Source of the DNA: Deltaproteobacteria bacterium
Lineage (GTDB): Bacteria; Myxococcota; Myxococcia; Myxococcales; 40CM-4-68-19
Direction: 5' to 3'
Assembly (NCBI GenBank): GCA_005879535.1
Contig: VBKI01000065.1
Span: 69,501-133,500, forward strand
Length of the DNA: 64,000 nucleotides
Both the position numbers and the translations under genes were made by a program. The notes under the pieces are model-generated. The model had not been told where the DNA came from. It did no database searches and was given only the letters and a program-made list of their open reading frames with translations. This document shows, piece after piece, positions 2,404 to 23,807 of the stretch (its first letter is position 1; the number at the start of each line of letters is the position of its first letter).

Positions 2404-3257
2404 GCGTGGGCATCTCCCGTCTCGGCGAGCAGCCGCGAGAGCACCCGGCTGGTATCGCCGGGTGCCTCGACGTGAGCGTAGACGATCGGCGCGCCCGCGT
2501 CCTGGGCGGCGCGCGACGCCGCCCTGTCGTCCGCCGTGTCGCCGATGAACAGGACCTCGGACGCCCTTGGCGCTCCGCGCAGCAGCGCGTGCGTGAGCCA
2601 GAGCAGCCCTGCGGGATCCGGCTTGCGCGGCCGGTGTCCGTCGGCGACCCAGCAGAGCTCGTCCGGGATCTTCAAGCGGCAAAGCCGTTGCGCAAGGCGC
2701 GTCTCGCCCGGGTTCCGCCCCGTGTAGAGGGCGAGCGGAAACCGGGTGGCGACGGCAGCGAGCAGACGGGAGTCAGGGAGCACCTCCTCGTTTTCCCACA
2801 TCCCCCGCTCGGGCGCGTCGGGGAGCACGTCCTTGGCCTCGAATCCGAACAGGTCGCGGCACATCGGCCCGCCGTAGAGAGCTCCGCAGATCCGCGCGAC
2901 GGTCTCCTGCCGGATGGGGACGGGACGCTTCTCGTAGAGCGGGCGAACCCCGTGGCCCCCGGCCTCGGCGAGAAAGCGTCCAAGGTCTGGCGCCTCTTGT
3001 CGCGCGCGCAGGTAGAGCAGAAGGGCGATCGCGCGGGACATCTCCCAGTCGTCGTTGAAGCCGCCGGCGTTCTTGAACGCCGCGATCTCGACGTCGCGAT
3101 CGAACGGCGCCCCACGCGCGGGACCCTCGCCGACGAGCGGCACGATGGCGCGGCGGGCAGCTTCCTCCGCCACCGCGTGGTAGCTGGGGCGCGCATCGAG
3201 CAGGACTCCGTCCACGTCGAGGATCACGCCCCGGACAGCGCGCAGCGAAAAGCTCAC
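2400..3257 (-). CDS. HAD-superfamily hydrolase in the his operon, candidate histidinol-phosphate phosphatase
   Basis: This 285-aa protein has all four HAD motifs: ILDVDGVLLD (nucleophile DxD), ALYTGRN (motif II Thr), the Lys of RPRKPDP, and FIGDTADDR (motif IV acids). An internal helical cap lies at about residues 20-165, so it resembles subfamily I. It is embedded between hisC and hisB with 4-base overlaps on both sides (GTGA and ATGA). HolPase must follow HisC and precede HisD in the pathway, and HisB here lacks that domain, so histidinol-phosphate phosphatase is the likely role. That function is inferred from context; the family is a general phosphatase family. Confidence 0.8.
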   Translation of the reverse strand: MSFSLRAVRGVILDVDGVLLDARPSYHAVAEEAARRAIVPLVGEGPARGAPFDRDVEIAAFKNAGGFNDDWEMSRAIALLLYLRARQEAPDLGRFLAEAGGHGVRPLYEKRPVPIRQETVARICGALYGGPMCRDLFGFEAKDVLPDAPERGMWENEEVLPDSRLLAAVATRFPLALYTGRNPGETRLAQRLCRLKIPDELCWVADGHRPRKPDPAGLLWLTHALLRGAPRASEVLFIGDTADDRAASRAAQDAGAPIVYAHVEAPGDTSRVLSRLLAETGDAHA

Positions 3258-4330
3258 GGCGCGAGCTCCGTCCGGATCGCAGCGAGAAAGGCATCGTTGG
3301 CAGCAGGCGCACCGATGCTCACCCGCAGCGCGCGCTCCAGGCCCGGCCCCGACGAGACGTTCCGGATCAGCACGCCCCGGCGGAACAGGGCGGCGTGCAG
3401 CTCGCCCGCCGGCATCCGCGTTTGCTCGAAGAGGATGAAATTCGCTCCCGAGGGATGGACCGTGGTTCCAAGCTCGCGAAGAGCGCGGCCGACCCGTTCG
3501 CGCTCGCCGACCACGCGGCGAACGCGGTCGGCCACCAACTCGGGGCGAGCAATGAGCGCGCGCGCGATCAGCGAAGTGGAGGCGCTCAGGTTGTAGGGAA
3601 GCTGGACCTTGCGCAGCTCCGCGCAGAGGCTCGGCGCCGCCAGCATGCATCCGGCGCGCAGGCTGGCCGCGGCGAACGCTTTCGAAAACGTGCGGAAGAG
3701 CGCCAGCCGCGGATGCTGCGGCAGCAGCGGGGTGAAATCCTGCCCGCAGAACTCGCGATAAGCCTCGTCGATCCCCAGCAGACAGGGCACCGCGCGCGCG
3801 AGCAGCGACGCGTCCTCCACGGAGAGCGTGGTGCCCGTCGGGTTGTTCGGCGATCCCAGCAGCAGCAGCTTCGCTCCCTCTGCCGCGCGCACCAGCTCTT
3901 CGAGGGGGAAGCGGAATTCGCCGGAACCGCCGCGAAGCGGAACGGCGATGACGCTTGCGCCCAGCGCTTTCGCCTGCAGCGCATACAGTGCGAAGGACGG
4001 CGCGACCACGACCACCGTATCGCCGGGCTCGATGCAGGCGAAGAGGAGCAGCTGGAGCAGCTCGTTCGAACCGTTCCCCACCAGGACGCCGGCGCGATCG
4101 ACGCCGAAAGCCTGTGCGAGATCTGCCCCGAGCCGCGCGCCGTCGGTGATGGGGTACTTCGACCAGTCCATTGCCTCGAGCTGAGCGGACAGCTCCCGCT
4201 TCAGCTCCGGCTGGACGTCGTCGGGGCTCTCATTGAGATGCAGCGGCACCGGAGCCGGATCTCGCGGCGGCCCATAGGGCGCAAGCGGCCGCACGGTGCT
4301 GCGCACGAACTCCTCCGGGGCCCGGCTCAT
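3254..4330 (-). CDS. hisC: Histidinol-phosphate aminotransferase HisC
   Basis: This 358-aa fold-type I PLP enzyme converts imidazole acetol phosphate to L-histidinol phosphate. Visible features are VPLHLNESP at the N-terminus, the GNGSNELL cofactor loop, SPNNPTGT, GIDEAYREF, and the Schiff-base Lys in FRTFSKAFA. The C-terminal Arg region (RVSIGA) that contacts the substrate phosphate is also present. Length is typical. The ATG at 4330 overlaps the hisD stop (ATGA), and the stop overlaps the HAD start. Confidence 0.95.
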   Translation of the reverse strand: MSRAPEEFVRSTVRPLAPYGPPRDPAPVPLHLNESPDDVQPELKRELSAQLEAMDWSKYPITDGARLGADLAQAFGVDRAGVLVGNGSNELLQLLLFACIEPGDTVVVVAPSFALYALQAKALGASVIAVPLRGGSGEFRFPLEELVRAAEGAKLLLLGSPNNPTGTTLSVEDASLLARAVPCLLGIDEAYREFCGQDFTPLLPQHPRLALFRTFSKAFAAASLRAGCMLAAPSLCAELRKVQLPYNLSASTSLIARALIARPELVADRVRRVVGERERVGRALRELGTTVHPSGANFILFEQTRMPAGELHAALFRRGVLIRNVSSGPGLERALRVSIGAPAANDAFLAAIRTELAP

Positions 4331-5607
4331 TTGCGCCGCACCTCGATGGCGCGGGCGTGGCCGTGCAGGCCCTCGGCGCGCGCCAGCGATTCGATGGCGG
4401 CGGAATCTGCCGCGAGCTGCCCGGGGCCGTACTCGATGACGTTCTGCCGGCGAACGAAGTCGGCCGCGTTCAGCGGCGAAGCGAACCGCGCCGTGCCGCC
4501 GGTGGGCAGCGTGTGGTTGGGACCCGCGAGATAGTCGCCGACCGGTACGGGCGCGTAGTGACCGACGAACACCGCCGCGGCGCGCGGGACTTTTGGCAAC
4601 GCGGCTGCGGCGTCCCGCAGGAGGAGCTCGAGATGCTCGGGGGCCAGATCGTTCGCGAATGCCAGCGCCTCGTCCAGGTCGCGGGCGACCACCGCGGCGC
4701 CGCGGGCCGCCAGAGACTCGGCCGCGACGCGGTTCGGATGCCCGGCGAGCTCCGCCTTTACCGCCTCGACGGTCCGCTGCGCGAGCGATGCCTCGGGTGT
4801 GACCAGCACGCTCAACGCCAGCGGATCGTGCTCTCCCTGCGCCACGAGGTCGGCCGCGACTTGACGCGGATCCGCGCTGCCATCGGCGACGATGACGACC
4901 TCCGTCGGTCCGGCCAGCGAATCGATGCGCACGTCGCCCGAGAGCTGCCTCTTCGCTTCGGTGACGTACGCGTTTCCTGGCCCGACGATCACGTCGACTT
5001 TCGGGACCGTCGCCGTTCCCAGGGCGAGCGCCGCCACCGCCTGCGCTCCGCCCGCGAGCAGGATGCGCGTGGCTCCCGCGATTCGCGCCGCCGCCGCGAC
5101 CTCCGGAAGGATGCCGCCGTCGCGACGCGGCGGAGTCGCCACGATCACCTCGGGCACTCCCGCGAGCCTGGCGACGGCGGCCGTCATGATGACCGTGGAG
5201 GGGTACGCCGCGCGGCCGCCGGGCACGTAGCAAGCCGCCCGTTGCAAGGGAATGGTCAGGCAGCGCACGACTCCGCCGGCCTGGAGATGCACGGCGTACG
5301 AGGAAGGAATCTGGCGGGCATGGAAGTCGCGCACCCGCTCGTGCGCGGTGACGAGTGCCTGCCGGACCTGGGCAGGGCACTCGTCCGCCAGCGCGCTCCA
5401 GCGCGCATCGTCGATGAAGAATGACTCGAGGCGCGGTCCATCGAAGCGCTCGGTCAGCTCGCGGACGGCCGCGTCCCCACGGGCGCGGACGTCGGCGATG
5501 ATGGCGGCGACCGAAGCCGAGATCTGCGACCCGATCTGTGCGGTCGTGCGCAGCGAGATCGCCTGCAGACGATCCGCGGGATCCTCCAGACGCAGAATGC
5601 GGATCAT
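4327..5607 (-). CDS. hisD: Histidinol dehydrogenase HisD
   Basis: This 426-aa zinc, NAD-dependent enzyme carries out the last two oxidations of histidine synthesis. Landmarks are CYVPGGRAAYPST, GPGNAYVTEAKRQL, DSLAGPTEVV, QGEHDPLA (zinc and catalytic Glu/His region), DLAPEHLELL and AGPNHTLPTGGTARF. Length matches the family. The start ATG at 5607 overlaps the hisG stop (ATGA), which excludes the long in-frame upstream extension as coding. Confidence 0.97.
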   Translation of the reverse strand: MIRILRLEDPADRLQAISLRTTAQIGSQISASVAAIIADVRARGDAAVRELTERFDGPRLESFFIDDARWSALADECPAQVRQALVTAHERVRDFHARQIPSSYAVHLQAGGVVRCLTIPLQRAACYVPGGRAAYPSTVIMTAAVARLAGVPEVIVATPPRRDGGILPEVAAAARIAGATRILLAGGAQAVAALALGTATVPKVDVIVGPGNAYVTEAKRQLSGDVRIDSLAGPTEVVIVADGSADPRQVAADLVAQGEHDPLALSVLVTPEASLAQRTVEAVKAELAGHPNRVAAESLAARGAAVVARDLDEALAFANDLAPEHLELLLRDAAAALPKVPRAAAVFVGHYAPVPVGDYLAGPNHTLPTGGTARFASPLNAADFVRRQNVIEYGPGQLAADSAAIESLARAEGLHGHARAIEVRRK

Positions 5608-6215
5608 CCGAGCTTCTCCAGGAGCGGCAGCATCTCCTCCACCTTCAATCGATACGCGGCGCGGTTCACCACCAGCCGGGCGGTGACCTGCAGGATCTCG
5701 TCGACTACCACCAGACCGTTCTCTTCCAGCGTGCGACCGGTCTCCACCAGATCGACGATCGCGTCGGTGAGTCCGCTGACCGCCGCGAGCTCGACGGATC
5801 CGGCGAGGTGGACGAGGTCCACGGGCACTCCGCGACGGCCGAACCACTGCAGGGTGAGCCGGGGATACTTCGTGGCCACGCGGAGCGACCGGCCCAGCTC
5901 CGCCGTCACGCTCGATCCCCGCGGCGCCGCCAGGCAGAGCCGGCAACGGCCGAACCCGAAGTCGATCGGCGTCAGCAGATCGGCGGCCGACTCGAGCACC
6001 TGATCGAGCCCGCAGACGCCGAGATCCGCCGCGCCGCGCTCCACGTACAAGGGCACGTCGCCGTCCTTGAGGACCACGAAACGTGCCGAGGATCCCGCCG
6101 CGATGATCAGCTTTCGGGACGTGCCCGGCTCGTCTTCCGGCACGACTCCCGCGTGCGCGAACCGCTCGAGCGCGGGCCTTTGCAGCCGGCCCTTCGGCAG
6201 GGCGATGGTCAGCAT
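5604..6215 (-). CDS. hisG: ATP phosphoribosyltransferase catalytic subunit HisG, short form
   Basis: HisG catalyses the first step of histidine synthesis, ATP plus PRPP. At 203 aa this is the short form, which lacks the C-terminal regulatory ACT-like domain of long HisG. Short HisG needs HisZ, encoded immediately upstream. The N-terminus LTIALPKGRL is diagnostic. The PRPP-binding loop is seen in SGLTDAIVDLVETGRTL. Its ATG overlaps the hisZ stop by 7 bases (ATGCTGA), consistent with equal production of the two subunits. Confidence 0.95.
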   Translation of the reverse strand: MLTIALPKGRLQRPALERFAHAGVVPEDEPGTSRKLIIAAGSSARFVVLKDGDVPLYVERGAADLGVCGLDQVLESAADLLTPIDFGFGRCRLCLAAPRGSSVTAELGRSLRVATKYPRLTLQWFGRRGVPVDLVHLAGSVELAAVSGLTDAIVDLVETGRTLEENGLVVVDEILQVTARLVVNRAAYRLKVEEMLPLLEKLG

Positions 6216-7156
6216 GCGAGCGGCACCAGCGCGTCGAGATCGAGCGAGAACCCGACCGCGGGCCGGGGATCGCCGAAGCGGCCGAGCAGGGTGTCGTACC
6301 GGCCACCGCCGCCGACCGGACGGGGCGCGCCGGTCGCGTACAGATTGAAGACGATGCCGGTGTAGTAGCCCAGCCCGCGGACCTCTCCGAGATCGACCTC
6401 CAGCTCGGCTCCGAGGCTGCGAGCCGCGCCGAGCGCGGCGGAGATGCGCTGCAGGGCCTTCAGGGCATCCTCGGTGGGCGCCAGCGCCTCGGCCCTCGAG
6501 AGCAGCTCGCCCGCTTCCGTCTGCGGGCGCGGCGGCTGCGCCAGCAGCAGGAGCGCATCGCGCGCTTTTCCCGGAGTGACCTCGCGCTCGCACAGGCTCC
6601 GCAACGTCGGCAGGTCCTTGCGATCGATGGCGTCGTTGAGCGCGGCGGCGAGCCTGCCTCCGGCCCCCGCCGCGGCGGCAAGGGCGGAGAAATATCCGGT
6701 GCTGCCCAGGGAGATGCGACCGCGAATGCCGAGGGCGTGCAGCGAGGCGGCGGCAAGCGCGAGGATCTCGGCATCCGCTTCGGCGCCGGCGGCGCCCACC
6801 AATTCGCAACCCGCCTGCAGTCTCTCGTGTACGGGCCCGCTGTCGGGTGCCACCCGGCGCACGATGCTGCCGCGGTAATACAGTCGCAACGGAGACATGC
6901 CCGAGAGTCGCGTCGCCGCGATGCGGGCGACCTGGGCGGTGAAGTCCGCGCGCAGCGCGATCAGCCGCCCGCTGCGATCGAGCGCCCTGAACGCTTCCGG
7001 TCCGAACACGTCCGCCGCCTCGATCGCAGGCGGGATGACCTCCGCGTAGCCCTTGGCCTCGAAGCGCGCGCAGAGCGTCGCCTCGCAGCGACGCAGGCGC
7101 CGCGCCGCCTCGAAGAGGAGGTCCTGCGTTCCGGGAAGTGGCGTCGCCGGTTGCAC
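6209..7156 (-). CDS. hisZ: ATP phosphoribosyltransferase regulatory subunit HisZ
   Basis: This 315-aa protein is a histidyl-tRNA synthetase paralogue without tRNA-charging function. It forms the HisG/HisZ complex and mediates histidine feedback. Class II synthetase traces remain: LPGTQDLLF at the N-terminus, motif-2-like LRLYYRGSIVRR, and LGYYTGIVFNLY and GGGGRYD as in HisS. It is too short for HisS and has no anticodon-binding domain. It starts at GTG 7156 and is the first gene of the operon; the 65-bp divergent gap to pyrD must hold the his promoter. Confidence 0.93.
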   Translation of the reverse strand: MQPATPLPGTQDLLFEAARRLRRCEATLCARFEAKGYAEVIPPAIEAADVFGPEAFRALDRSGRLIALRADFTAQVARIAATRLSGMSPLRLYYRGSIVRRVAPDSGPVHERLQAGCELVGAAGAEADAEILALAAASLHALGIRGRISLGSTGYFSALAAAAGAGGRLAAALNDAIDRKDLPTLRSLCEREVTPGKARDALLLLAQPPRPQTEAGELLSRAEALAPTEDALKALQRISAALGAARSLGAELEVDLGEVRGLGYYTGIVFNLYATGAPRPVGGGGRYDTLLGRFGDPRPAVGFSLDLDALVPLAC

Positions 7157-7221
7157 GAAGGGGCGATTGTCGACGGCGGACGCCGACGGCGCAAGGGCGC
7201 GTGTTATAGGCTGCGCCGTCC
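7157..7221. promoter_or_regulatory. Divergent hisZ/pyrD promoter gap with possible extended -10 for pyrD
   Basis: This 65-bp space must drive both the his operon (minus) and pyrD (plus). On the plus strand TGTTATAGG at 7202-7210 fits an extended -10 (TGn followed by TATAGG), only 11 bases before the pyrD GTG. That would leave a leader of a few bases or none. I see no convincing -35 at proper spacing and no clear minus-strand promoter. Confidence 0.35.
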
Positions 7222-8256
7222 GTGTACTTCCTCGTGCGCCCGCTGCTCTTCATGCTCCAGCCGGAAACGGCGCACGGCCTGGCGGGCGTCCTGTTGCGCG
7301 TCCGCTCGGCCCCGCGCGCGATCCCCGGCGCCGATCCAGTGCTCCGGCAGACGTTGTCGGGGATCGATTTTCCGACCCCGCTCGGTCTGGCAGCCGGTAT
7401 GGACAAGGGCGACGTCCTTGCGCCGGGCTGGTTCCGCCTGGGGTTCGGCTGGGTGGAGATCGGAACGATTACCCCCCGACCCCAGGCGGGAAACGAACGG
7501 CCCCGCCTGTTCCGGCTCGTCGATCAGCGCGCGATCATCAACCGGATGGGCTTCAACAATGCCGGCGCGACGGCGGTGGCGGAGAAGCTCCGCCGGTTGC
7601 CGCCCCTTCCAGGGCCCGTCTGCATCAATGTCGGCCGCAACAAGGACACTCCGAACGAGCGTGCAGCCGAGGATTACGTCTCGGCGTTCCGCGTCCTGGC
7701 GCCGCATGCCGCGCTCGCCTCGATCAATGTCTCCAGCCCGAATACGCCTGGGCTCCGCGCGCTCCAGGCGGAGCTGGGAACGCTCGTCGCCGAAGTGGTC
7801 AAAGCGCGCAACGCGATGGCCCGCCGGATCCCGGTGCTGGTGAAGCTCTCTCCCGACGAGCCCGACGGCCGCCTGGTGGAGATGGCTCAGGCGGCACAGG
7901 CCGCGGGCGCGGACGGCATCATCGCGACCAACACGACGATCGATCGCGCTGCGGTGCGGGCCCATCCCCGAGCAGCGGAAGCGGGCGGCCTCTCCGGCGC
8001 GCCGCTGCGCGAGCGCGCATTGCACGTCTGCCGGCTACTGTATCGCAGCGTGTCCGTCCCCATCGTAGGAGTCGGCGGCATCTTCACCGCCGAGGATGCC
8101 TACGCGCGCATCCGCGCGGGCGCTTCTCTGATCCAGGTCTACACGGCGCTCGTCTACGAAGGACCGGGTCTACCGAAGCGGATCTCGCGCGGTCTCGCGG
8201 CGCTGCTGCGCCGCGACGGGCTCACGCTGCCCCAGGCGATCGGCAAGGACACGTAG
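7222..8256 (+). CDS. pyrD: Dihydroorotate dehydrogenase (quinone), class 2 PyrD
   Basis: This 344-aa FMN enzyme oxidises dihydroorotate to orotate in pyrimidine synthesis. The N-terminal hydrophobic helix (YFLVRPLLFML) is the class 2 membrane and quinone-binding extension. LGLAAGMDKG, FNNAGA, INVGRNKDT, NVSSPNTPGLR with the catalytic Ser, VKLSPDE, TNTT and GVGGIF line up with the flavin and substrate sites. The GTG at 7222 was chosen because it gives the full N-terminal helix. It converges on the FHA-lytic transglycosylase gene, with a repeat element between them. Confidence 0.95.
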   Translation: MYFLVRPLLFMLQPETAHGLAGVLLRVRSAPRAIPGADPVLRQTLSGIDFPTPLGLAAGMDKGDVLAPGWFRLGFGWVEIGTITPRPQAGNERPRLFRLVDQRAIINRMGFNNAGATAVAEKLRRLPPLPGPVCINVGRNKDTPNERAAEDYVSAFRVLAPHAALASINVSSPNTPGLRALQAELGTLVAEVVKARNAMARRIPVLVKLSPDEPDGRLVEMAQAAQAAGADGIIATNTTIDRAAVRAHPRAAEAGGLSGAPLRERALHVCRLLYRSVSVPIVGVGGIFTAEDAYARIRAGASLIQVYTALVYEGPGLPKRISRGLAALLRRDGLTLPQAIGKDT

Positions 8257-9898: not shown

Positions 9899-10855
9899 TC
9901 AGGTCCGAAGGGCGGCGAGATCGGGTTGGTCTTCTCCGGTCGCCGCGCGTCGCGGCTCCACGGCCCCGAACGCGGCGCGCACGACGGCCATCACCGCGAG
10001 CGCGATCGCGAGCCCGAGGAAAATGTCGAGCAGGTAGTGGTGGTTGAGGTAGACGGCAGCGAAGCAGACCAGCAGGAAGTACGGCGCAGCGATTCGCCGG
10101 AACCGGCGCAGGTGCCAGCCATAGATCATCGCCAGGAACGGATAGACGACGTGGAGGCTGGGGATGGCGCCGAACACGTCCGCGCTCTTGCCGTAGAACC
10201 CCTGCATGACGGGAATGCCGATCAGGTGATCGAACCGGATGGCTCCCGCCGGCGAAGCATGGACGGCGAGGTTCACGACGAATCCGTGATCGGAGACGTA
10301 CCACGGCGGCGCGGCCGGGTAGACGTAGTAGCAGGCGAAGCCGATGAAGTTGGAGATCACGAAGATCCAGGTGAACCGCTCCGCGCGCCGCACCTGGCCG
10401 TTGGCGATGAACCAGATGCTGAGCAGGATCGACTCCCCGATGAAGAACATCGGCGTGTAGGCCAGGCCGCAGAGGAAGTCGAGGACCGGGCTCGTGTGCC
10501 GCTGCAGCCACTCATTGGGGGTCAGCCCATGGATCCCGAACCAGCGCAGATCGAAGTCGTACGGCTCGTGCACGTGGATGACGGGCGAGCGGATGTAGTC
10601 CGCGTACCAGCGCATCGAATCGTACACCAGCGCGTAGAGCAGGTAGGGAAGTCCGATCAGCGCCAGCTTGCGGCTCTGGTCGTTCCAGAGCGAGAGCACG
10701 AGGGCGATGACGGCGGCCAGGAAATGCTCCGGGCCCGGACCGCCGAGCAGATGCAGCGCCGCCAGATACGCGATGGTGAGCGCGGGGATCCAGATGGTGA
10801 AGAAGGGATGCGCGTCCCGCAGCTGATCGGGGCGGGGCCGCAGGAAGGTGGGCAT
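9899..10855 (-). CDS. PAP2-superfamily membrane enzyme resembling Aur1-type inositol phosphorylceramide synthase
   Basis: This 318-aa polytopic protein has the lipid phosphotransferase signature in Aur1-like form: YPAAPPWY at 179-186, IPSLHVVYPF with His235, and NHHYLLDIFLG with His273 and Asp277. Several hydrophobic helices surround these. Aur1 relatives move a phospho-head group (for example inositol phosphate) from a phospholipid to another lipid at the outer membrane face; plain PAP2 phosphatases share the His/Asp core. The ATG lies 1 base after the stop of the RND gene, so it is in one operon with the exporter, aminotransferase and CDP-alcohol transferase. The substrate is not known. Confidence 0.8.
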   Translation of the reverse strand: MPTFLRPRPDQLRDAHPFFTIWIPALTIAYLAALHLLGGPGPEHFLAAVIALVLSLWNDQSRKLALIGLPYLLYALVYDSMRWYADYIRSPVIHVHEPYDFDLRWFGIHGLTPNEWLQRHTSPVLDFLCGLAYTPMFFIGESILLSIWFIANGQVRRAERFTWIFVISNFIGFACYYVYPAAPPWYVSDHGFVVNLAVHASPAGAIRFDHLIGIPVMQGFYGKSADVFGAIPSLHVVYPFLAMIYGWHLRRFRRIAAPYFLLVCFAAVYLNHHYLLDIFLGLAIALAVMAVVRAAFGAVEPRRAATGEDQPDLAALRT

Positions 10856-10856
10856 C

Positions 10857-13343
10857 CTATGCGGCCCCCTGCTGGGCGGCGTCGGCAGGAACGGCCGCGG
10901 TCCTTCTCCGGTCGCGGAGCGAAAGCACCGCCGGCAGCGCGAACAGCGCCGCCGTCAGGCAGGTCACCTCGCCGATCACCGCCGTCAGCCCGAAGCTCTG
11001 GATGGCCTGGTTGTCCGCGGTCACCAGCGTCGCATAGCCGATCATGGTGGTGACCGAGCAGAGCGCCACCGCGCCGCCCGAGGAGGAGAGCGCCTCCTCC
11101 ACGCTGCAGGTCTGCCGGTACCGCTGGTAGAGGTTGACGGCATAGTCCACGCCGATTCCGAAGGTGATGGGCAGGACGGCGAAGTTGACGAAGTTCAGCT
11201 TCAGCGAGAGAGCGGTCATCGCTCCCGCTCCCCAGAGAACCCCGAGCGAGAGCGAGGCGATCACCCACGCGCCGTCGCGAATGCTGCGCATCACCACCAC
11301 CGTGAGCAGGGCGACGGCGAAGAAGCTGAGCAGCGCGGTGAACCGGCCGTCGTCGGTGATCGCCTGGACGATGTCCGTCGTCAGCACGATCTGGCCGGCC
11401 ACCAGCGCGCTCCGATCTACCTTCAGCGCCGCCTCGCGCACGGTCCGGGCGTGCTGGATCTGCGCGCGGCCGTTCGAGCTGTCGGTGGCGAGGGTCGGGA
11501 ACACCAGGACGATCCGGCCGCGGTGCCCGTCCTTCTCCACGAACGCGCGCGTCAGCCGCTCTGGCACGTCCGAGAGCGAGACGGGCTCGAGCTTGGTCCG
11601 CTCGCGCAAGCGCCGGATCTCCGGGGGCAGCTCCGCTGCCGGCCGCTTGTCGAGGAGGCTGAAGATCTGCCGCAGGATCTCCAGCTTCTGCGTTTGGTCC
11701 TTTGGAATGAACTGCTGCAGCGTGACCACCGACTCGATGGTGCTGTTCGGTCCTTCCTGCTCCTTCTCCTTCTCGATCGCCGCGGCCACCGCCTGCGCTT
11801 CTTCCGGCGAACCGGTGAGCACCACCGTGGGAGTCTGGTACGACTGCAGGACCGCGTCGACGTGGCGGTCCCAGTAGCCCTGTCCGTGATTCTCGCTCGA
11901 CCGGCTCCCCAGCTTGGTGAAGTCGTACTGGATCGGCTCCTGCGCGAACAGGTAGCCGGCATACAGCGAGGCGCCGCCGAGAGCGACCGTGATCACCACC
12001 GGGATCAGCGGCCTTCTCACCACCAGCTGGGCGAAGGGGCCGGCGAGCCACCCGACCACCCGGCCACGCTTCGGCGGCGCGAGCTCGCCGTAGGGCCAGA
12101 ATTTCTCCTGGAGTGCGATCAAGGCCGGCATGAGCGCATAGGTGGTGAGCCAGCAGAGGGCCATCCCGAAGAAGCCCATGAAGGCGAACTGGTTGAACCC
12201 ACGGAAGCTCACTGCTCCCAGCGAACCGTAGCTCGCCGCCGCGGCGGCGCTCGCCGCGAACGTGGCGATCCAGGTGGCGCGCAGCGAGAGGGGAAGCGCC
12301 CTGGCGATGTCCGAGCCGTGCCTGCGCTCCTCGATGTACCGCGCGAGGAGGATGATTCCCGCGTTGATCCCATTGCCGATGATGATGCTGCCGAGGAACG
12401 CCGTGTTCGGATTGAGGTAGTGGATCACCTCGCGCGAGAGAGCGAAGGTGAGGGCGACGCCGGTGAAGAGCGGAAAGACCAGAAGCGGTACCGCCCGGAT
12501 GGTGCGGTAGTAGAGAATCAGCGCCAGACCGACGGCGGCGAGCGTGAGCGCGCTGGAGAGCGCGAGATCGCGGACCAGCGCTTCCTGCGCCTCGATCAGC
12601 CCCTTGATCTCGCCGCCGTAACCGATCTCGATGCTTGGATGGAAGCTCTTGGGATTGAGCTCTTTCACCTTGAAGTCGACGGCGCCGAAGATCCGCTGAT
12701 CGTCCTCGAGGCTCACCGCCGCGCCTGGAGGCGAGAGCAGCATCACCAGCGTGTGGCCACCTTCGCCCGCGAGGTACCCGTCGGGGTAGCGGTCGAGGCG
12801 CGCGTAGGCTGCCTTGATCCGGGCCACCGCCTCGTCGAGACTGACCGAAGGCGCGGTCTCCCCGTCGTCGGCGAGGTCGACGAGCAGTGGATTCGCCCGG
12901 GCAATCTGCGAGCGGAGCGCGTCGCGCGCGGCGATCAGATCCTTGAGATCGGCATAGAGCGCTCCGTGGCGGTCGAGGAACTCCTTCTCCGCGTCGACGC
13001 GCCAGTGCACCTGCGCCACCAGCGACGGCGGCAGTTGCTTCAGGCTTGCAGCCAGCGCGTCGACGAACCGTTCGCCGGCCTTCAGATCGTCGGTGCGCAC
13101 GACGATCGCGAGGTGCGAGAGGCCGCCGATGCGCCTCTCCAGCTCGGCGAGGGCCACCGCCGCCGGAGCGCCCTGCGGCAGGAGCTCACGAAGATCGGTG
13201 CGCAGATCGCCGTAGAGCCGCGCTGCGCCAGGGATGGAGGCGACGAACGCGAGGATCCCGAGGAGCACGATCAGCCTGGGCCGGCGGAGCGAGAGCGCCG
13301 CCCACCACTGCCAGAACCGCGCGGTCCGGGAGAGCTGCTCCAT
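10857..13343 (-). CDS. RND/MMPL-family exporter
   Basis: This 828-aa protein has two similar halves, each with a membrane helix, a large periplasmic loop and a five-helix bundle, as in MMPL/HpnN-type RND transporters that export lipids. The first helix (RLIVLLGILAFVASI) is followed by a long soluble region. Helices cluster again around 270-400 and 670-815. GIGVDYAVNLYQRY in the second half resembles the RND helix-4 motif with conserved Asp. It sits between the aminotransferase (10-base gap) and the PAP2 gene (1-base gap). A product of the neighbouring lipid enzymes is the likely cargo, by inference. Confidence 0.85.
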   Translation of the reverse strand: MEQLSRTARFWQWWAALSLRRPRLIVLLGILAFVASIPGAARLYGDLRTDLRELLPQGAPAAVALAELERRIGGLSHLAIVVRTDDLKAGERFVDALAASLKQLPPSLVAQVHWRVDAEKEFLDRHGALYADLKDLIAARDALRSQIARANPLLVDLADDGETAPSVSLDEAVARIKAAYARLDRYPDGYLAGEGGHTLVMLLSPPGAAVSLEDDQRIFGAVDFKVKELNPKSFHPSIEIGYGGEIKGLIEAQEALVRDLALSSALTLAAVGLALILYYRTIRAVPLLVFPLFTGVALTFALSREVIHYLNPNTAFLGSIIIGNGINAGIILLARYIEERRHGSDIARALPLSLRATWIATFAASAAAAASYGSLGAVSFRGFNQFAFMGFFGMALCWLTTYALMPALIALQEKFWPYGELAPPKRGRVVGWLAGPFAQLVVRRPLIPVVITVALGGASLYAGYLFAQEPIQYDFTKLGSRSSENHGQGYWDRHVDAVLQSYQTPTVVLTGSPEEAQAVAAAIEKEKEQEGPNSTIESVVTLQQFIPKDQTQKLEILRQIFSLLDKRPAAELPPEIRRLRERTKLEPVSLSDVPERLTRAFVEKDGHRGRIVLVFPTLATDSSNGRAQIQHARTVREAALKVDRSALVAGQIVLTTDIVQAITDDGRFTALLSFFAVALLTVVVMRSIRDGAWVIASLSLGVLWGAGAMTALSLKLNFVNFAVLPITFGIGVDYAVNLYQRYRQTCSVEEALSSSGGAVALCSVTTMIGYATLVTADNQAIQSFGLTAVIGEVTCLTAALFALPAVLSLRDRRRTAAVPADAAQQGAA

Positions 13344-13353
13344 CGCGTCAGTC

Positions 13354-14697
13354 CTACGCCGCGCCGTGCCTGCGCGCTACGGCCTCGATCGCCTCGCGCA
13401 GTAGCGACAGCCCGCTCAGCGCGGTGTCGCGGTCGATGGTCAGCGCCGGCTGCAGCCGGATCGCGTGGGTGTAGCTCATCGCCAGAAGTCCGCGGCGCAG
13501 CCCGTCCTGGAAGATCTCGCCGCAGATCTTCCTCGCCAGAGGCTCTTTCGTCTCCCGGTCGGAGACCAGCTCCACGCCGAGGAATAGTCCCTCTCCGCGG
13601 ACGTCGCCCACCCATCTCAGGCGGTCCGGCCAGGTGCGCAGCTCGTCCAGCATCGCCGCGCCGACCTCGCGTACGTTCTGCAGGACGTTGTCGCGATGGA
13701 GGATCTGGATGCTGGCCAGCGCCGCCGCCGCGGCCAGCGGGTTGCCGCCGTAGGAGGAGGAAGACCCGCTCGGATTCGCCCAGGGCTTTGCCTGCGCGAT
13801 CTCCCCTTTCGCGACCACGCCGCTGATCGGGAAGCCGCCGCCGAACGCCTTCCCGATGGTGATGATGTCCGGCGTCACGCCGCTCCGCTCGCACGCGAAC
13901 CAACGGCCGGTACGACCGAAACCCGTGATCATTTCGTCGGAGATGAACACCGCGCCGTGCTCCCTGGCGATCTCCTGTGCTCTCACCATGAACTCCGGCG
14001 GCGGAATCACGTTCCCCGCGGTCCCCTGGAGGGGTTCCATGATCACCGCCGCCACGCTGCCCGCCGTCTGGTGGCGCAGCTGGTCGCGCGCCAGATCCGC
14101 GCAGGCGATGCCGCAGCTCCGCGGCTCGAGCTTGAGCGGGCATCGATAGCAGTTCGCAAAGGGCAGCACGTGACCAGGTGGAATCGGCCCGTAGCTCTTC
14201 GCGTTGCCGGCGCCGTTCGCGGAAAGCGCCCGCGCCGTCTTGCCGTGAAAGCCACCCCAGAAGCCGACGACTTCCTGGTGGCCGGTGTGGTTCATCGCCA
14301 GGCGGAACGCGCTCTCCACCGCCTCGGCGCCGCTGGAGTAGAGCTGGACCTTGTCGACGCCCTTGGGCGTGACCTTCGCGACCTCGTTGATCAGGTCCGC
14401 GCGCGGCGCGCTGGTGAACGATCCGACGGTCACCTTGTCGAGCTGCTCGTGGAGAGCCTTCGTCCACGCGGGGTGGCGATGGCCGAGGCTGTTCACGCCG
14501 ATCCCGCCGATCAAGTCGACGTATCGGTTGCCGTCGACGTCCTCGATCACCGAGCCCTGCGCGCGTTCGACGGCGATGCCGGAGCTGAGCGCGAAGCCCT
14601 GCAGGCCGGGGGCAAGATGCCGCTGCTCGTGCTCCACCAGGCTGCGGGATCGCGGGCCAGGGATTTCCGTCTGGATGTGCGGGGCTTTGAGCGCCAT
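13354..14697 (-). CDS. Class III PLP-dependent aminotransferase
   Basis: This 447-aa fold-type I enzyme is of the class III group (4-aminobutyrate, ornithine and related omega-aminotransferases). DGNRYVDLIGGIGVNSLGH, SSGAEAVESAFRLA, FHGKTARALS, VIMEPLQGTAG and FISDEMITGFGRTG are typical, and the PLP Lys lies in ITIGKAFGGGFP. A short Cys-rich insert (NCYRCPL, then RSCGIAC) at about residues 180-198 may bind metal or simply be conserved. The substrate cannot be told from sequence. Its place in a lipid-like operon suggests it makes or removes an amino group on a head-group or lipid precursor. Confidence 0.88.
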   Translation of the reverse strand: MALKAPHIQTEIPGPRSRSLVEHEQRHLAPGLQGFALSSGIAVERAQGSVIEDVDGNRYVDLIGGIGVNSLGHRHPAWTKALHEQLDKVTVGSFTSAPRADLINEVAKVTPKGVDKVQLYSSGAEAVESAFRLAMNHTGHQEVVGFWGGFHGKTARALSANGAGNAKSYGPIPPGHVLPFANCYRCPLKLEPRSCGIACADLARDQLRHQTAGSVAAVIMEPLQGTAGNVIPPPEFMVRAQEIAREHGAVFISDEMITGFGRTGRWFACERSGVTPDIITIGKAFGGGFPISGVVAKGEIAQAKPWANPSGSSSSYGGNPLAAAAALASIQILHRDNVLQNVREVGAAMLDELRTWPDRLRWVGDVRGEGLFLGVELVSDRETKEPLARKICGEIFQDGLRRGLLAMSYTHAIRLQPALTIDRDTALSGLSLLREAIEAVARRHGAA

Positions 14698-14815
14698 TTC
14701 CCTCGCCTTCAGAAGCCGCAGCGGAGCGTTCGATTCCAGACCCGCTGCGCCGATGGGCGGGCACGTCTAGCACATGTGCCAGGCATCTGCAGGCGGGAAA
14801 AGGTCGGATGCCGTC

Positions 14816-17137
14816 TCAGAAGGCGGGCAGATTCGCGGGCTTGTTCGCGTAGGAAAATTCGGAGAGCGCCTGGCCGCTGCGCACTGTCGGCTCCTCGCCC
14901 GGCCTCTCGATTCGCAGCTCGTAATGGTTCTCGTAGGTGTAGGCCATTGGAGCAGCCCAGGTGCTCACCAGCAGCCGCGACAAGGGCCCCATCTCGTCGA
15001 GGAGATCCTGGCGGTAGAGCAGCTTCCGCGCCTGGACGTGCACGGTCACCGTCTCGCCGTCCACGCCCCGGGCCACGGCCGCAACGCGTTGCGGAACGTC
15101 GTACTCGAAATGCCCTCCCGGCTCGTGGCGCAGATCCTCGAATGCGATTTTGACGTCGGTGGATCGGACTTCCGTCTTTCCGTCGCGCGAGGTGTACATC
15201 CACCCCTGCGGCGGCAGCCGCGAGCCCCCCGGGGGAAAGAGGATCGCCAGCGCCGCGCTCGTTCCCTGCTCGCCGTCGAACGCCTGCATCCGGTACCAGA
15301 GCGAGGCGCTCTTGTAGGCCGGGACCGTGGAGTAGGACGTGTCGGCGTACGAGTAGCCACGCATCCGGCGGCTGCCGGTGCCTGCGCTCCACAGCGTTCC
15401 CTCGAACCTGCTGCGCAGGGCGAAGATGGTGTGGTCGAAGACTGCATGGCCGCTGGCGTCGAAGACGACGCGGCCCCCGCCGGGCCGGACCGGCTGCGTC
15501 TCGGGAAGGACGGTGGCGTCCACCACCAGCTTGCGGCCCGCGAAGTGGACGTGATGGCTCGCGTCCGGGCCCATCGTCAGGCGGGAGGTGCCCATCTCGA
15601 TGGCGCCTTCCGGCTGCACGGCCCACTCGCCGCTCTCGAACGCTTGCCCGTCCTCGATGGTCCTGCCGTCGGGCGCCACCACTACCGCGCGCACCGCGCC
15701 CTTGCCGTGCCCTTCGAGGCCGGCATTGCTGACGAGGAACTGCACGCGGGCGAACGACCCGTCGTCGGCGCTGAAGAGGAAGGAGTAGCTCTCCGAGTAG
15801 AACGCTTCGGAACGGAGCTTGGGGAGAAAGCTCTTCTGCGTCAGATTTGCCGTGTCGGGAAGCGCGCTGGAAAAGCCGTGCACCTGCTCCTCGGCGAACG
15901 GATTTCCGTACGAGACGAAGAGCACCGCCATGGCGGCGAATCCCGAGGCGACCGCGCCGATCAGCGCCAGCACCGGATGCGGGCGACCGGTCTGCTCGCG
16001 GAAGACGAAGATCCGGTGCAGCGGCAGGTTCCAGCAGAGCGACACGCCGAGCCCGACCACGGCGGCTGCCACGAGCGGGTTCCAGCGCAGTCCCTCGGTG
16101 AGGAGGATGACGCCGACCGTGTTGAGGAGCAGCGAGGTGAGGGAGATGGCCGCGTACCGCGGCACTTCCACCAGGACCGAATTGTCCTGCGTCTTGAAGG
16201 TGTAGATCTTGTTCACGGTGAAGTTGGTGATCGCTCCGAGCAGCGCCCCGAGGGCGCGCGAGCTCCCGGTGTAGATCCCGACTACCTCCACCAGGATCGT
16301 GAACGTGCCGTAGTCGACCGCCGTCGCGATCGCCGAGGCAATCCACGCGCGTTGAAACCATCCCGACAGCTCCTCCTCGCGGGTGGACGCGGCCGGGGCG
16401 GCACCCTCGCGTTTGCGCAGCTGACCGTGGATGTAGATGAAGCGCCGGATCGCGGTGACGTTCGCCATCACCGCGACCAGCAGCAGCGTGGCGAGCATCA
16501 GGTAGAACGCGGGGTGCGAGCCGCGAGGCTCGGCGAACTGCGCCAGATATGGCGAGAGCACGCCGGCCGAGCCGATGTACAGCGCGCGCTCGCCGCGGTT
16601 CATCGATCCCATCCGCGCGTCGATCCCGGAGATCTCGCCTTTGGCACGGGCGTAGGAGACGAGCAGTGCGCCGGCGAGCGAGGTGAGCGCGAGCCAGAAT
16701 CCCAGGGGATAGCTCCGGTAGTACGCCGCAATGCCGGCGAAGGTGGCGATCTCCGCGTAGCGATCGACGGCGGCGTCGAGGAGCTCGCCGGCGTCGGACG
16801 CCGTGCCGCGCGTGCGCGCCACCATCCCGTCGAGCGCGTCGAGGATCGCGCAAGCGATCACCAGCCAACCGCCGAGCGTGAAACGGCCGGTGGCGAACGC
16901 CGCGGCGCCGGCCACGCTGCAGCCGAGCGACCCGAGCGTGAGCTGATTCGGCGTGATCCGCAGGCGCAGGCAGAGCTTCTCGAGGGGCTCGAAGCACCAG
17001 TAGCCGAACTCGATGAAGAAGCGGCTCAGGAATACGCTTCCCGGCTCCTTCTTCACCCGCTCGGGCACGTACCGGCCCTTGACCAGCACGCGGAGCGAAT
17101 ACGCGCCGAGCAGCACGACAACGATCCCAATCGTCAC
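14816..17137 (-). CDS. CDP-alcohol phosphatidyltransferase - GtrA - C-terminal beta-rich (lipocalin-like?) fusion
   Basis: This 773-aa protein combines three parts. Residues about 40-240 form a CDP-alcohol phosphatidyltransferase with a perfect catalytic motif at 100-125 (DALDGMVAR, then G and two Asp in GELLDAAVDR). Residues about 260-385 are a four-helix GtrA-like domain (DYGTF, NFTVNKIYTF, WNLPLHRIFVF). Residues about 395-773 are soluble and beta-rich after one more helix. SYSFLFSADDG and ARVQFLVSNAG there faintly recall Svf1/AttH double-lipocalin lipid carriers, by memory only. It probably makes a phospholipid and moves it. The start is GTG 17137. Confidence 0.85.
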   Translation of the reverse strand: MTIGIVVVLLGAYSLRVLVKGRYVPERVKKEPGSVFLSRFFIEFGYWCFEPLEKLCLRLRITPNQLTLGSLGCSVAGAAAFATGRFTLGGWLVIACAILDALDGMVARTRGTASDAGELLDAAVDRYAEIATFAGIAAYYRSYPLGFWLALTSLAGALLVSYARAKGEISGIDARMGSMNRGERALYIGSAGVLSPYLAQFAEPRGSHPAFYLMLATLLLVAVMANVTAIRRFIYIHGQLRKREGAAPAASTREEELSGWFQRAWIASAIATAVDYGTFTILVEVVGIYTGSSRALGALLGAITNFTVNKIYTFKTQDNSVLVEVPRYAAISLTSLLLNTVGVILLTEGLRWNPLVAAAVVGLGVSLCWNLPLHRIFVFREQTGRPHPVLALIGAVASGFAAMAVLFVSYGNPFAEEQVHGFSSALPDTANLTQKSFLPKLRSEAFYSESYSFLFSADDGSFARVQFLVSNAGLEGHGKGAVRAVVVAPDGRTIEDGQAFESGEWAVQPEGAIEMGTSRLTMGPDASHHVHFAGRKLVVDATVLPETQPVRPGGGRVVFDASGHAVFDHTIFALRSRFEGTLWSAGTGSRRMRGYSYADTSYSTVPAYKSASLWYRMQAFDGEQGTSAALAILFPPGGSRLPPQGWMYTSRDGKTEVRSTDVKIAFEDLRHEPGGHFEYDVPQRVAAVARGVDGETVTVHVQARKLLYRQDLLDEMGPLSRLLVSTWAAPMAYTYENHYELRIERPGEEPTVRSGQALSEFSYANKPANLPAF

Positions 17138-17250: not shown

Positions 17251-17270
17251 AACGAATGCGACTTTTCGTT
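17251..17270. promoter_or_regulatory. AT-rich inverted repeat between two minus-strand genes
   Basis: AACGAA and TTCGTT flank 8 bases, overlapping the stop of the phosphodiester-glycosidase gene. The 131-bp gap 17138-17268 is unusually AT-rich here and separates that gene from the lipid cluster. It could be a weak terminator or an operator for the downstream operon. No strong promoter boxes are visible. Confidence 0.3.
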
Positions 17271-18072
17271 ACCTGCCCATGACAATCAACACGATCGGCA
17301 GGCCGACGCCCAGGCCACCGATGGCGTCCTCGGTGGGCTCGTCTTTCACGGAGAGCGTGGCCTCGGGGCCGCCGTCGAGGTTCATAGCGTCGACGACGCC
17401 CACCTGTTCCGCCAACCATTTTCCAACGCTGCGCCGAATCGCCGGCCACTGGGAGGCGAAGAGGAGAATGCGCCCGTCCTTGAGCTGCGCGATCGCGGCG
17501 GTACGCGACGACTCGGCGCAGTAATTCGGTCCTGCGCACGCGGCGGCTCCATTGCGCACCAGGGCGGGAAAGCTCTTCATCGCTTCCGTCCATTGCTCCG
17601 CGCGGAACTCGGAGGGAGCGAGAAACCGCGGGGACAGGGCGGAGGCGGGCTCGCGGCTCACCATCGGCGTCGAGGCGGAATCGGGGGGCCGCGGGACGGA
17701 CCCGAAGTACAGGGCATCCTGCCGTTGGCATCCCGCACCGCGGACGCGCAAGCCGTCGGAGACGAGCTCGCATGTCGGCCGCACTTCAGCGCCGTCCTTC
17801 GAATAGAACGACCCGTTCACGATCGCGATGGCGTTCGGGAACCGCTTCCGCCATTCCGTAAGCGTCGGGCGCGTCGCGTCGTAACGGACGAGAAGGCGCG
17901 TCTTGGCGAGATCGGCGAGCACCACGCGGGCGGACCAGGCGGGATCGCCTCCCAGCTCGGCTGCCGGCGCGGTTTCGACGCCCGGCGCCACGCGCTTCCA
18001 CGGCGTGGACAGCGACACTCCGGCAATCAGGAGCAGCGCGTAAATCACTCTCCTGAGACTGTACACGCGCAC
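17269..18072 (-). CDS. Phosphodiester glycosidase (NAGPA-like) family exported protein
   Basis: This 267-aa protein has an N-terminal signal or anchor helix (VIYALLLIAGVSL). The rest matches the phosphodiester glycosidase/DUF2233 family related to mammalian uncovering enzyme: IVNGSFYS, SSRTAAIAQLKDGRILLF and the hallmark MNLDGGPEATL near residue 230. Such proteins remove sugar phosphodiesters or act in exopolysaccharide and envelope chemistry. The start is GTG 18072; an in-frame GTG 6 bases later is an alternative. It lies upstream of the lipid cluster on the same strand, possibly with its own transcript. Confidence 0.82.
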   Translation of the reverse strand: MRVYSLRRVIYALLLIAGVSLSTPWKRVAPGVETAPAAELGGDPAWSARVVLADLAKTRLLVRYDATRPTLTEWRKRFPNAIAIVNGSFYSKDGAEVRPTCELVSDGLRVRGAGCQRQDALYFGSVPRPPDSASTPMVSREPASALSPRFLAPSEFRAEQWTEAMKSFPALVRNGAAACAGPNYCAESSRTAAIAQLKDGRILLFASQWPAIRRSVGKWLAEQVGVVDAMNLDGGPEATLSVKDEPTEDAIGGLGVGLPIVLIVMGR

Positions 18073-22022: not shown

Positions 22023-23807
22023 ATGAACGCGTACACCTTCCGAATCCAGCAGCCCGAGGTCCGCCGCGTGGAGGTGGAGCTGCAGGTCGAATCGCGCGGA
22101 GCCGACGCGCTCGACGTGCGCCTGCCGGTCTGGACGCCAGGGAGCTATCTCGTCCGCGAACACCAGCGGCACGTCGACGGCCTGCGGGCATCGGGGGACG
22201 GGCGCGAGCTTTCGGTGGAGAAGATCGACAAGCACACCTGGCGCGTCGGGACGGGTGCCGCGCCGACGGTACGCATCTCGTACCGCCTGCACTGCTTCGA
22301 GCTGACGGTGCGGACGAACCACGTGGACGCCACGCACGCGTTCCTGAATCCGAGCGCCGCGGCTGCGTTCGTCGTCGGACGCGAAAGCGAGCCGTGCGCG
22401 GTGCGGCTGCAGCTGCCGGCGGGGTGGCGCGCCTGGAACGCGCTCCCCTTCGAGGACGGCGCGTTCAAGGCGCAGGACTACGACGAGCTCGCCGACAGCC
22501 CGTTCGAGTGCGGGGCGGAGGGGTCGCATTCCGCCCATCCCTTCGTCGCCCAGGGCGTCCAGCACGAGCTCGTGGTGTGGGGACGCGGCGACTTCGATGC
22601 CCGCCGCGTGGTGCCCGATCTGGTGAAGATCGTCGACGCCGAAGCGGCGATCTTCGGAGGGCTCCCTTATTCCGACCGCTACCTCTTCATCCTCCATCTC
22701 AACGACAAGGCGCGCGGCGGTCTCGAGCATCGCCGCAGCTGCGCGCTGATCGTCCCTCGCTTCTCCTTCGTGCAGAAGAATGCGTACGAGGACTTCCTGC
22801 TGCTGGTGGCCCACGAGTTCTTCCACCTCTGGAATGTGAAGCGCGTGCGGCCTTCGGCGTTCACGCCGTACGACTGGACGCGCGAGAACCACACCCGCCT
22901 GCTCTGGGCGATGGAGGGATTGACCTCGACGTACGAAGTCTTCGCCCTTCTCCGCGCGAAGCTGATCACGCCGCAGCGCTTCCTCGAGATCTGGGCCGAG
23001 CGCAACACCCAGCTCCTGCGCACGCCGGGCCGCCTGCGCACCTCACTCGCGCAGGCGTCGTTCGACGCCTGGATCAAGCACTATCGGCCGGACGAGAGCA
23101 CCGCGAACACCACCGTCTCGTACTACCTGAAAGGGAGCATCGTCGGATTCCTGCTCGATCTCGAGCTGCGCCGGCGCAGCGGGGGTACCCGATCGCTCGA
23201 CGACCTCGTGCGCGCCCTGTTCGAGAAGCACGGCCGCCCTCCCGGCCTTCCCGAAGACGGAGTGGAGAAGGCGGCCATCGAGCTGATCGGGGATAGGACG
23301 CTCCACGAGTGGTTCGAGCGTGCGGTGTACTCGACGCAGGAACTGCAGCTCGAGGAGGCGCTTTCCGGAGTAGGGATCCAGGCGATGATGGCGCCGGCCT
23401 CGGGCGCCGACGACAAGGGCGGCGCAGAGGGGGGGCCGGAAAAAGGGTCCGTCGCCGACGCGCGCCCGCGCAGTTGGCTGGGTGCGACGTTTCGGGAGAA
23501 GGGCAGCGCGTTGGAGATCACCTCGGTTGCGGAAGGCTCGCCCGCGCAAGCCGCGGGCTTGGCCGCGGGCGACGAAATTGCCGCTGCCGACGGGTTCCGC
23601 ACCGACTTGAAGCAGCGGCTCGGCCGGACGCAGCCGGGGCAGACGCTGCGCTTGTCGCTCTTCCGGATGGACGAGCTTCTCGAAGTGGGCTTGCAGGTCG
23701 CCGCACCGCCGCGCGACACGGTCACGTTCAAGCCGGATCCGAAGGCGACTTCCGAGCAGCTCGCCGCGAGGGAGCGCTGGCTGGGCGCTCGCTGGCCCGA
23801 CGAGTGA
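22023..23807 (+). CDS. M61 (glycyl aminopeptidase) family metallopeptidase with PDZ domain
   Basis: This 594-aa protein has the M61 layout: an N-terminal beta domain, a thermolysin-like catalytic domain and a C-terminal PDZ domain. Zinc ligands are in VAHEFFHLWNVKRVRP (HExxH), and WAMEGLTSTYE supplies the downstream Glu. GGLEHRRS is the substrate-side motif. The PDZ (about 480-570) shows WLGATF and EGSPAQAAGLAAGDEI. No obvious signal peptide is present, so it may be cytoplasmic. The ATG at 22023 was chosen because it opens directly into the beta domain, 16 bases after the previous stop. Confidence 0.9.
   Translation: MNAYTFRIQQPEVRRVEVELQVESRGADALDVRLPVWTPGSYLVREHQRHVDGLRASGDGRELSVEKIDKHTWRVGTGAAPTVRISYRLHCFELTVRTNHVDATHAFLNPSAAAAFVVGRESEPCAVRLQLPAGWRAWNALPFEDGAFKAQDYDELADSPFECGAEGSHSAHPFVAQGVQHELVVWGRGDFDARRVVPDLVKIVDAEAAIFGGLPYSDRYLFILHLNDKARGGLEHRRSCALIVPRFSFVQKNAYEDFLLLVAHEFFHLWNVKRVRPSAFTPYDWTRENHTRLLWAMEGLTSTYEVFALLRAKLITPQRFLEIWAERNTQLLRTPGRLRTSLAQASFDAWIKHYRPDESTANTTVSYYLKGSIVGFLLDLELRRRSGGTRSLDDLVRALFEKHGRPPGLPEDGVEKAAIELIGDRTLHEWFERAVYSTQELQLEEALSGVGIQAMMAPASGADDKGGAEGGPEKGSVADARPRSWLGATFREKGSALEITSVAEGSPAQAAGLAAGDEIAAADGFRTDLKQRLGRTQPGQTLRLSLFRMDELLEVGLQVAAPPRDTVTFKPDPKATSEQLAARERWLGARWPDE

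Follow-up and report, generated by a model that had tools for sequence, protein, structure and literature searches.

Gene content and conservation of the locus

We define the "window" as the 64,000-nucleotide stretch of contig VBKI01000065.1 (assembly GCA_005879535.1, assigned to the Myxococcales) that was analysed here; the genome it comes from comprises 5.16 Mb in 118 contigs. Four clustered open reading frames (ORFs), all on the minus strand, lie at positions 9899-17137 and encode a fusion of a phosphatidylinositol-phosphate (PIP) synthase, a GtrA domain and a tandem lipocalin, then an aminotransferase, an exporter and a PAP2 protein (Table 1), which together are candidates for an inositol lipid pathway. 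A first-pass annotation of this DNA had described four contiguous minus-strand genes including a three-part fusion, and these were found at the coordinates first given, with the Pfam domains claimed for them. The gaps between fusion and aminotransferase, aminotransferase and exporter, and exporter and PAP2 gene are 118, 10 and 1 nt, respectively.

Table 1. Features of the cluster, the parts of its fusion protein and the upstream neighbour, in window coordinates
Feature	Position	Strand	Length or residues	Evidence and remarks
Fusion: PIP synthase - GtrA - transmembrane helix - tandem lipocalin	14816..17137	(-)	773 aa	
Domain 1, phosphatidylinositol-phosphate synthase-like CDP-alcohol phosphotransferase (CDP-AP)	16388..17137	(-)	aa 1-250	CDP-AP motif and inositol-phosphate pocket
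Domain 2, GtrA/DPMS transmembrane domain, candidate phosphatidylinositol flippase	15980..16366	(-)	aa 258-386	PF04138 2.9e-18; BT_1524 counterpart
Extra transmembrane helix	15917..15973	(-)	aa 389-407	Hydropathy, positive-inside rule; C-terminus predicted periplasmic
Domain 3, tandem lipocalin-like (AttH/CrtC/Svf1-type), candidate periplasmic lipid carrier	14816..15847	(-)	aa 431-773	AlphaFold and Foldseek
Class III pyridoxal phosphate (PLP) aminotransferase	13354..14697	(-)	447 aa	PF00202 (Aminotran_3) 1.1e-97
MMPL/RND exporter, HpnN-like	10857..13343	(-)	828 aa	PF03176 (MMPL) 5.7e-31; TIGR03480 6e-66
PAP2_3 protein, candidate inositol phosphoceramide (phosphatidylinositol-ceramide) synthase	9899..10855	(-)	318 aa	PAP2_3 2.9e-23
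NAGPA-type phosphodiester glycosidase	17269..18072	(-)		PF09992 7.8e-14; upstream neighbour kept by synteny

The cluster is real, and is neither a chance arrangement nor an artefact of gene calling. Conservation in relatives, the lack of which would have counted against the first-pass annotation, was found: the fusion is present in 11 of 12 genomes examined from the family to which the window genome belongs (the "window family"), across all four genera, in copies that are complete or broken at contig ends. Complete copies in relatives share about 62-91% identity with the window fusion, and the loci of eight relatives retain NAGPA, fusion, aminotransferase, RND and PAP2 in this order wherever the contig reaches. 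The named relatives that bear the fusion are metagenome-assembled delta-proteobacteria or Myxococcales, the majority of them being placed in Myxococcota. Scans for promoters and terminators gave no signal above chance level.

Domains of the fusion and the PAP2 protein

Several sequence tests identify domain 1 as a PIP synthase. The Pfam family CDP-OH_P_transf matches residues 61-170 (7.6e-13), the top NCBIfam models are archaetidylinositol-phosphate synthase (1.2e-34), PIPSynth (1.3e-28) and the BT_1523 model (5.6e-26), and the closest solved structure is the PIP synthase of Mycobacterium tuberculosis (3e-14). The CDP-AP motif, DxxDGxxAR(x8)GxxxDxxxD, is found as D100, D103, G104, A107, R108, G117, D121 and D125 and is invariant in 17 homologues. 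The M. tuberculosis enzyme holds inositol phosphate with R94, S132, K135, R137, R152, R155 and R195 (PMC4634129, PMC6506517). Their counterparts in domain 1 are R126, S161, R164, K166, R181, R184 and R232, K135 and R137 being conservatively swapped to R and K; the first six are invariant in the 17 Myxococcota homologues, and R232 is so in 12 of these. At the position following the last catalytic Asp (the R94 site of M. tuberculosis), the genome's own PgsA and PssA have K or V instead of R, and both branch apart from domain 1 in the tree. A myo-inositol-phosphate synthase (MIPS) is encoded in the window genome outside the cluster. Where the first-pass annotation had left the choice between an inositol- and an amino-headed lipid, the pocket residues and MIPS favour the former, and nothing shows an amino headgroup. 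Non-myxobacterial loci recruited through domain 1, which are remote CDP-AP matches, had no PAP2, GtrA or lipocalin neighbours in hidden Markov model searches.

The aminotransferase gives rise to a different view of the headgroup, in which it would aminate an inosose or another polyol phosphate and the CDP-alcohol enzyme would couple the product to lipid. The gene does recur with PIP synthase: it is found with it in the window family, directly follows it in loci L048 and L054 even where no PAP2 gene is near, and lies close to it in genome G039 (locus L134), where serine palmitoyltransferase (SPT) is also present. We nonetheless regard an amino-polyol headgroup as improbable, because the inositol-phosphate pocket of domain 1 is intact, the enzymes of known structure nearest to the aminotransferase use amino acids or GABA, and the gene is absent from the Myxococcaceae-like clusters described below. 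The idea that the aminotransferase substitutes for SPT is disfavoured, since G039 carries both. At L048:4461-8193, from another Myxococcales metagenome-assembled genome, genes for PIP synthase, aminotransferase, a radical SAM/SPASM protein and GtrA stand in a row.

Domain 2 is, by profile comparison, a genuine GtrA domain: the match at residues 267-379 scores 66.6 bits, above the Pfam gathering score of 26.1. A Bacteroides BT1524 mutant studied by Sartorio et al. showed a decrease in inositol phosphoceramide (IPC) and an increase in phosphatidylinositol (PI) (PMC8791184), which on our reading is what would be expected if GtrA flips PI to supply an IPC synthase in the periplasm. Basic residues precede the additional transmembrane helix that follows domain 2.

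The fold of domain 3 was examined by structure prediction. AlphaFold gave a poor model from nine close homologues (pLDDT 55.6); 19 stand-alone or distant relatives were then added, and the model built from 27 sequences reached a pLDDT of 86.8 and a pTM of 0.85. Two lipocalin-like barrels are predicted in one chain over the full length of the domain, and every confident match returned by Foldseek is a tandem lipocalin-like protein: Fsa2, Phm7, CghA, AttH NE1406, kievitone hydratase and 25-phosphosteroid lyase. The PDB entries matched include 7e5t, 2ich, 6kbc and 7a0q. By its modelled fold, domain 3 belongs to the Svf1/AttH/CrtC tandem lipocalin superfamily, and the C-terminus of the fusion is not an unrelated fold, as it might have proved to be. 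Searches of PDB sequences with C-terminal profiles returned no credible relative (none with one profile, one at E 0.9 with another), and it is by structure only that domain 3 can be linked to solved proteins. Svf1_C is the sole Pfam match of domain 3 (aa 663-763, 4.5e-4; 22.3 bits, below the gathering score of 25). Among the 27 domain members, 15 touch Svf1_C at E<=1, with a best value of 6.7e-6, and four touch CrtC, one of them well over its cut-off. The first-pass annotation had called its Svf1-like reading of this region weak; given the tandem-lipocalin fold and the Svf1_C matches, that reading holds for the fold and the superfamily, while at the family level the Svf1_C score stays under its cut-off.

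Profile searches found relatives of domain 3 in 62 of 195 Myxococcota genomes, a count that takes in the window family; most of them are encoded by genes of their own. Several stand-alone homologues begin with a plain signal peptide, which would place the domain in the periplasm, in agreement with the helix at aa 389-407. Yeast Svf1 is a proposed ceramide carrier; when it is lost, ceramide levels go up and those of complex sphingolipids go down (PMC10583516). Domain 3 could instead be an enzyme, a lyase, hydratase or isomerase acting on lipid, an alternative that concerns one part of the system and is compatible with the explanation developed below for the whole. The presence of Fsa2, Phm7, CghA, kievitone hydratase and 25-phosphosteroid lyase among the closest folds makes this conceivable, but just four columns are invariant across the 27 members (E19, N41, G43 and P300), the domain is constantly paired with a flippase-like domain and often with an exporter, and Svf1_C is the commonest Pfam match. 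We consider the enzymatic role possible, though the lesser prospect.

The first-pass annotation had also described the PAP2 protein as Aur1-like rather than a simple phosphatase, and the NCBIfam comparison points the same way. Its only NCBIfam match is NF052609 (phosphoinositol dihydroceramide synthase, BT_1522; E 5.4e-53), a model that matches none of 14 control genomes. The predicted catalytic His-His-Asp residues, H235 (in IPSLH) with H273 and D277 (in HHYLLD), are invariant in seven homologues, and the gene is genomically linked to PIP synthase and GtrA. The PAP2 protein and its exporter neighbour also invite a reading in terms of hopanoid or terpenoid metabolism, with the class III aminotransferase as a further member: HpnN (TIGR03480) is the best NCBIfam match of the MMPL protein, and a PAP2 paralogue resembling IPC synthase adjoins squalene/phytoene synthase. 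We considered this and rejected it as very unlikely. The HpnN score is far under its cut-off (223 of 752 bits), hopanoid synthesis is not known to involve PIP synthase, GtrA or MIPS, and the cluster PAP2 groups with the SPT-linked copy in the G039 cluster, apart from the squalene-locus paralogues (tree support 96/94).

The paralogue itself, at G000:C60 (L208:5724-11956), is a second IPC-synthase-like PAP2 protein beside squalene/phytoene synthase and an HpnA-like reductase, and a terpenoid role for this PAP2 subfamily is possible. An HpnH-like radical SAM gene lies near the corresponding PAP2 locus in G010 (L211).

The same parts in other Myxococcota and a possible source of ceramide

The fusion is a Rosetta stone for parts that are adjacent as single genes in other Myxococcota. 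Seven Myxococcaceae-like loci, from genomes of 9-13 Mb in the same order as the window genome, share the sequence MIPS, PAP2, PIP synthase, GtrA, secreted lipocalin and dual-specificity (DSP)-type phosphatase; in L137 a single protein already combines PIP synthase with GtrA. The G157 locus carries MIPS, PIP synthase, GtrA, lipocalin and RND genes, with SPT about 11 kb away. Separate genes for PAP2, lipocalin, a HAD phosphatase, GtrA, PIP synthase, aminotransferase and RND are found in G039, where SPT, a GNAT protein resembling bacterial ceramide synthase (CerS-like) and an epimerase-type reductase (CerR-like) come directly after RND; we use the names CerS and CerR on the strength of the genes' position next to SPT and of the fold class of their products. 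The same SPT, CerS-like and CerR-like trio occupies a separate locus in G130, and in Sorangium and Polyangium PAP2 directly follows PIP synthase. In G029, which belongs to a different family within the phylum, MIPS and PAP2 are accompanied by a three-part fusion and RND. The tree, in which some forks are unresolved, places the G029 fusion with the Myxococcaceae type, so that three-part fusions may have originated on two occasions. The phosphatase at L137:10561-11139, which follows the lipocalin gene in Myxococcaceae-like clusters, is a candidate PIP phosphatase replacing the PgpA-like BT_1525.

Of SPT and MIPS, the two genes that the first-pass annotation had proposed to look for, MIPS is present, as noted, and no canonical stand-alone SPT was found in the window family. 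The best SPT scores are 312 bits in the window genome, about 515 in the Myxococcaceae-like genomes and 480 in G039, none of which reaches the cut-off of 640. CerS-like and CerR-like genes are present in all nine window-family genomes searched. On G000:C53 (L034:3154-11032) lies a gene for a 2258-aa fusion of polyketide synthase (PKS) and alpha-oxoamine synthase (AOS), with the domain order KS-AT-ACP-KR-DH-AOS; the best CerR-like reductase gene adjoins it in divergent orientation, an arrangement found in at least three genera of the window family. In Pseudomonas, PKS and AOS have been shown to make sphingolipids (PMC12134224), and the PKS-AOS protein may supply the sphingoid base in place of SPT. 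Two other oxoamine synthases were rejected as SPT: a KBL-like protein on contig C6, which scores 317 as glycine C-acetyltransferase and 232 as SPT, and one on C48, which is BioF.

The ceramide question bears directly on a further alternative, in which the phosphoinositol lipid has an acceptor other than ceramide (another amino or hydroxy lipid), or PI alone is the product and PAP2 acts on a different acceptor. The lack of a canonical SPT in the window family would fit such a scheme, as would the Sorangium and Polyangium loci, which pair PIP synthase with PAP2 alone. We judge it unlikely all the same, given that SPT, CerS-like and CerR-like genes adjoin the cluster in G039, that SPT lies near it in G157, and that all of the window-family genomes searched keep the CerS-like and CerR-like genes.

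Proposed pathway and comparison with known systems

The reading that we prefer, with a probability of roughly 0.7, is that an inositol phosphosphingolipid, either IPC or a closely related lipid, is produced and transported by the cluster. Most likely it is the Myxococcota version of the known IPC pathway, in which the fusion architecture and the candidate flippase, carrier and exporter are new. The substrates, the product, the direction of movement, the carrier role and export are given here as we infer them. MIPS, encoded elsewhere in the genome, would produce inositol phosphate, which domain 1 would couple to CDP-diacylglycerol at the cytoplasmic face, yielding phosphatidylinositol phosphate. 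A phosphatase would convert this to PI, and the attached GtrA domain would transfer PI to the periplasmic leaflet. There the PAP2 enzyme, with its active site in the periplasm, would use PI as the donor of phosphoinositol to ceramide, with IPC and diacylglycerol as the products; in the window family the ceramide may derive from the PKS-AOS protein together with the CerS-like and CerR-like proteins. On the periplasmic side, ceramide or IPC would be bound by the tethered tandem lipocalin, with MMPL powering onward passage to the outer membrane. Synthesis would be coupled to flipping and carriage through the fusion.

Several observations weigh against this interpretation. Domain 1 falls under the NCBIfam equivalog cut-offs (100 of 170 bits for PIPSynth, 119.8 of 180 for archaetidylinositol-phosphate synthase), and its match to the BT_1523 model is likewise under the curated cut-off. 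The PAP2 protein reaches 180 of 480 bits on NF052609, and the paralogue at the squalene/phytoene synthase and HpnA-like reductase locus (G000:C60) scores equally, at 187 bits, so that the score alone leaves the substrate of PAP2 unfixed and genomic context carries the assignment. To the missing SPT may be added that the AOS domain scores higher as BioF (350 bits) than as SPT (311 bits), and that G030, which has neither a CerS-like gene nor an NF052609 match, likewise encodes an AOS within a large open frame. No PIP phosphatase lies within the cluster; the candidates are a PgpA-like gene on C64 and a HAD-like gene on the contig that contains the window. The aminotransferase has no assigned place in the proposed pathway, the tandem-lipocalin folds include enzymes (pericyclases, a hydratase and a lyase), and a BT_1524 deletion examined by Heaver et al. 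had normal inositol lipids by thin-layer chromatography (PMC9246714).

A more ambitious version is tentative, and we think it doubtful as a whole. In it the fusion would be a self-contained machine that makes, flips and carries the lipid, GtrA being the PI flippase, which would account for the Bacteroides BT1524 phenotype, and the lipocalin a periplasmic ceramide or IPC carrier homologous to yeast Svf1, with MMPL completing transport to the outer membrane and PKS-AOS supplying the base in place of SPT. If it were true, a bacterial set of PI synthase, Aur1-like enzyme and Svf1-like carrier would predate or parallel the eukaryotic one.

A NAGPA gene is directly upstream of the fusion in every relative examined. 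Neighbouring ORFs at window positions 3254-8256 are ordinary and resemble, as judged by eye, histidine biosynthesis genes and dihydroorotate dehydrogenase. A tRNA-Ser called by ARAGORN at 22418-22502 (-) is antisense within a long protein-coding ORF and is probably a false positive.

The authors of PMC11087976 state that no flippase or transporter has yet been identified for moving bacterial sphingolipids between membranes. The locus offers three transport candidates, the GtrA domain, the tandem lipocalin and the MMPL protein, fused to or beside synthesis enzymes. Because the candidates also occur in Myxococcaceae-like relatives of a culturable group, the question of sphingolipid transport becomes directly testable. 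Myxococcus xanthus makes ceramide phosphoinositol, according to work cited in PMC9246714; the loci would give that report a basis at the level of genes and suggest a function for the GtrA protein of the Bacteroides pathway. A literature search, which was not exhaustive, found no published assignment of these genes.

Taken as a whole, the first-pass interpretation is supported. It had drawn a parallel with yeast PI synthase, Aur1 and Svf1; the closest experimental precedent is instead the IPC operon of Bacteroides, which comprises IPC synthase (BT_1522), PIP synthase (BT_1523), GtrA (BT_1524), PIP phosphatase (BT_1525) and MIPS (BT_1526) (PMC9246714, PMC8791184). PAP2-type IPC synthase, PIP synthase and GtrA are common to the window and B. 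thetaiotaomicron BT_1522-1526, as is MIPS in the Myxococcaceae-like relatives. In the window, however, PIP synthase, GtrA and lipocalin are fused in one polypeptide, the cluster also has genes for an exporter and an aminotransferase but none for MIPS or PIP phosphatase, and the scores on the BT models are far under cut-off. Mycobacterial and Renibacterium PIP synthases (PDB 6h53, 5d91) share the CDP-AP motif and the inositol-phosphate pocket residues with domain 1, whereas the window protein has R and K at the K135 and R137 sites, an extra N-terminal hydrophobic helix, and GtrA and lipocalin fused to it. Yeast Svf1, considered with Aur1 and Pis1, resembles domain 3 through the sub-threshold Svf1_C match, the tandem lipocalin fold and a similar pathway context. 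Svf1 is cytosolic or attached to the Golgi, whereas domain 3 is membrane-tethered and predicted to be periplasmic, and its kinship to Svf1 over AttH and CrtC is unproven. AttH (NE1406, 2ich), CrtC and the fungal Diels-Alderases have the same fold (Foldseek E to 8e-14, TM-score about 0.65-0.70) at an identity of 10-15%. HpnN and other MMPL lipid exporters share the MMPL architecture, although the context in the window is an inositol lipid and not a hopanoid. For the SgaAB system of Pseudomonas, which makes PKS-derived sphingolipids (PMC12134224), the parts in common, by description, are a PKS, an alpha-oxoamine synthase and a ketosphinganine-reductase-like partner; in the window family PKS and AOS are a single polypeptide.

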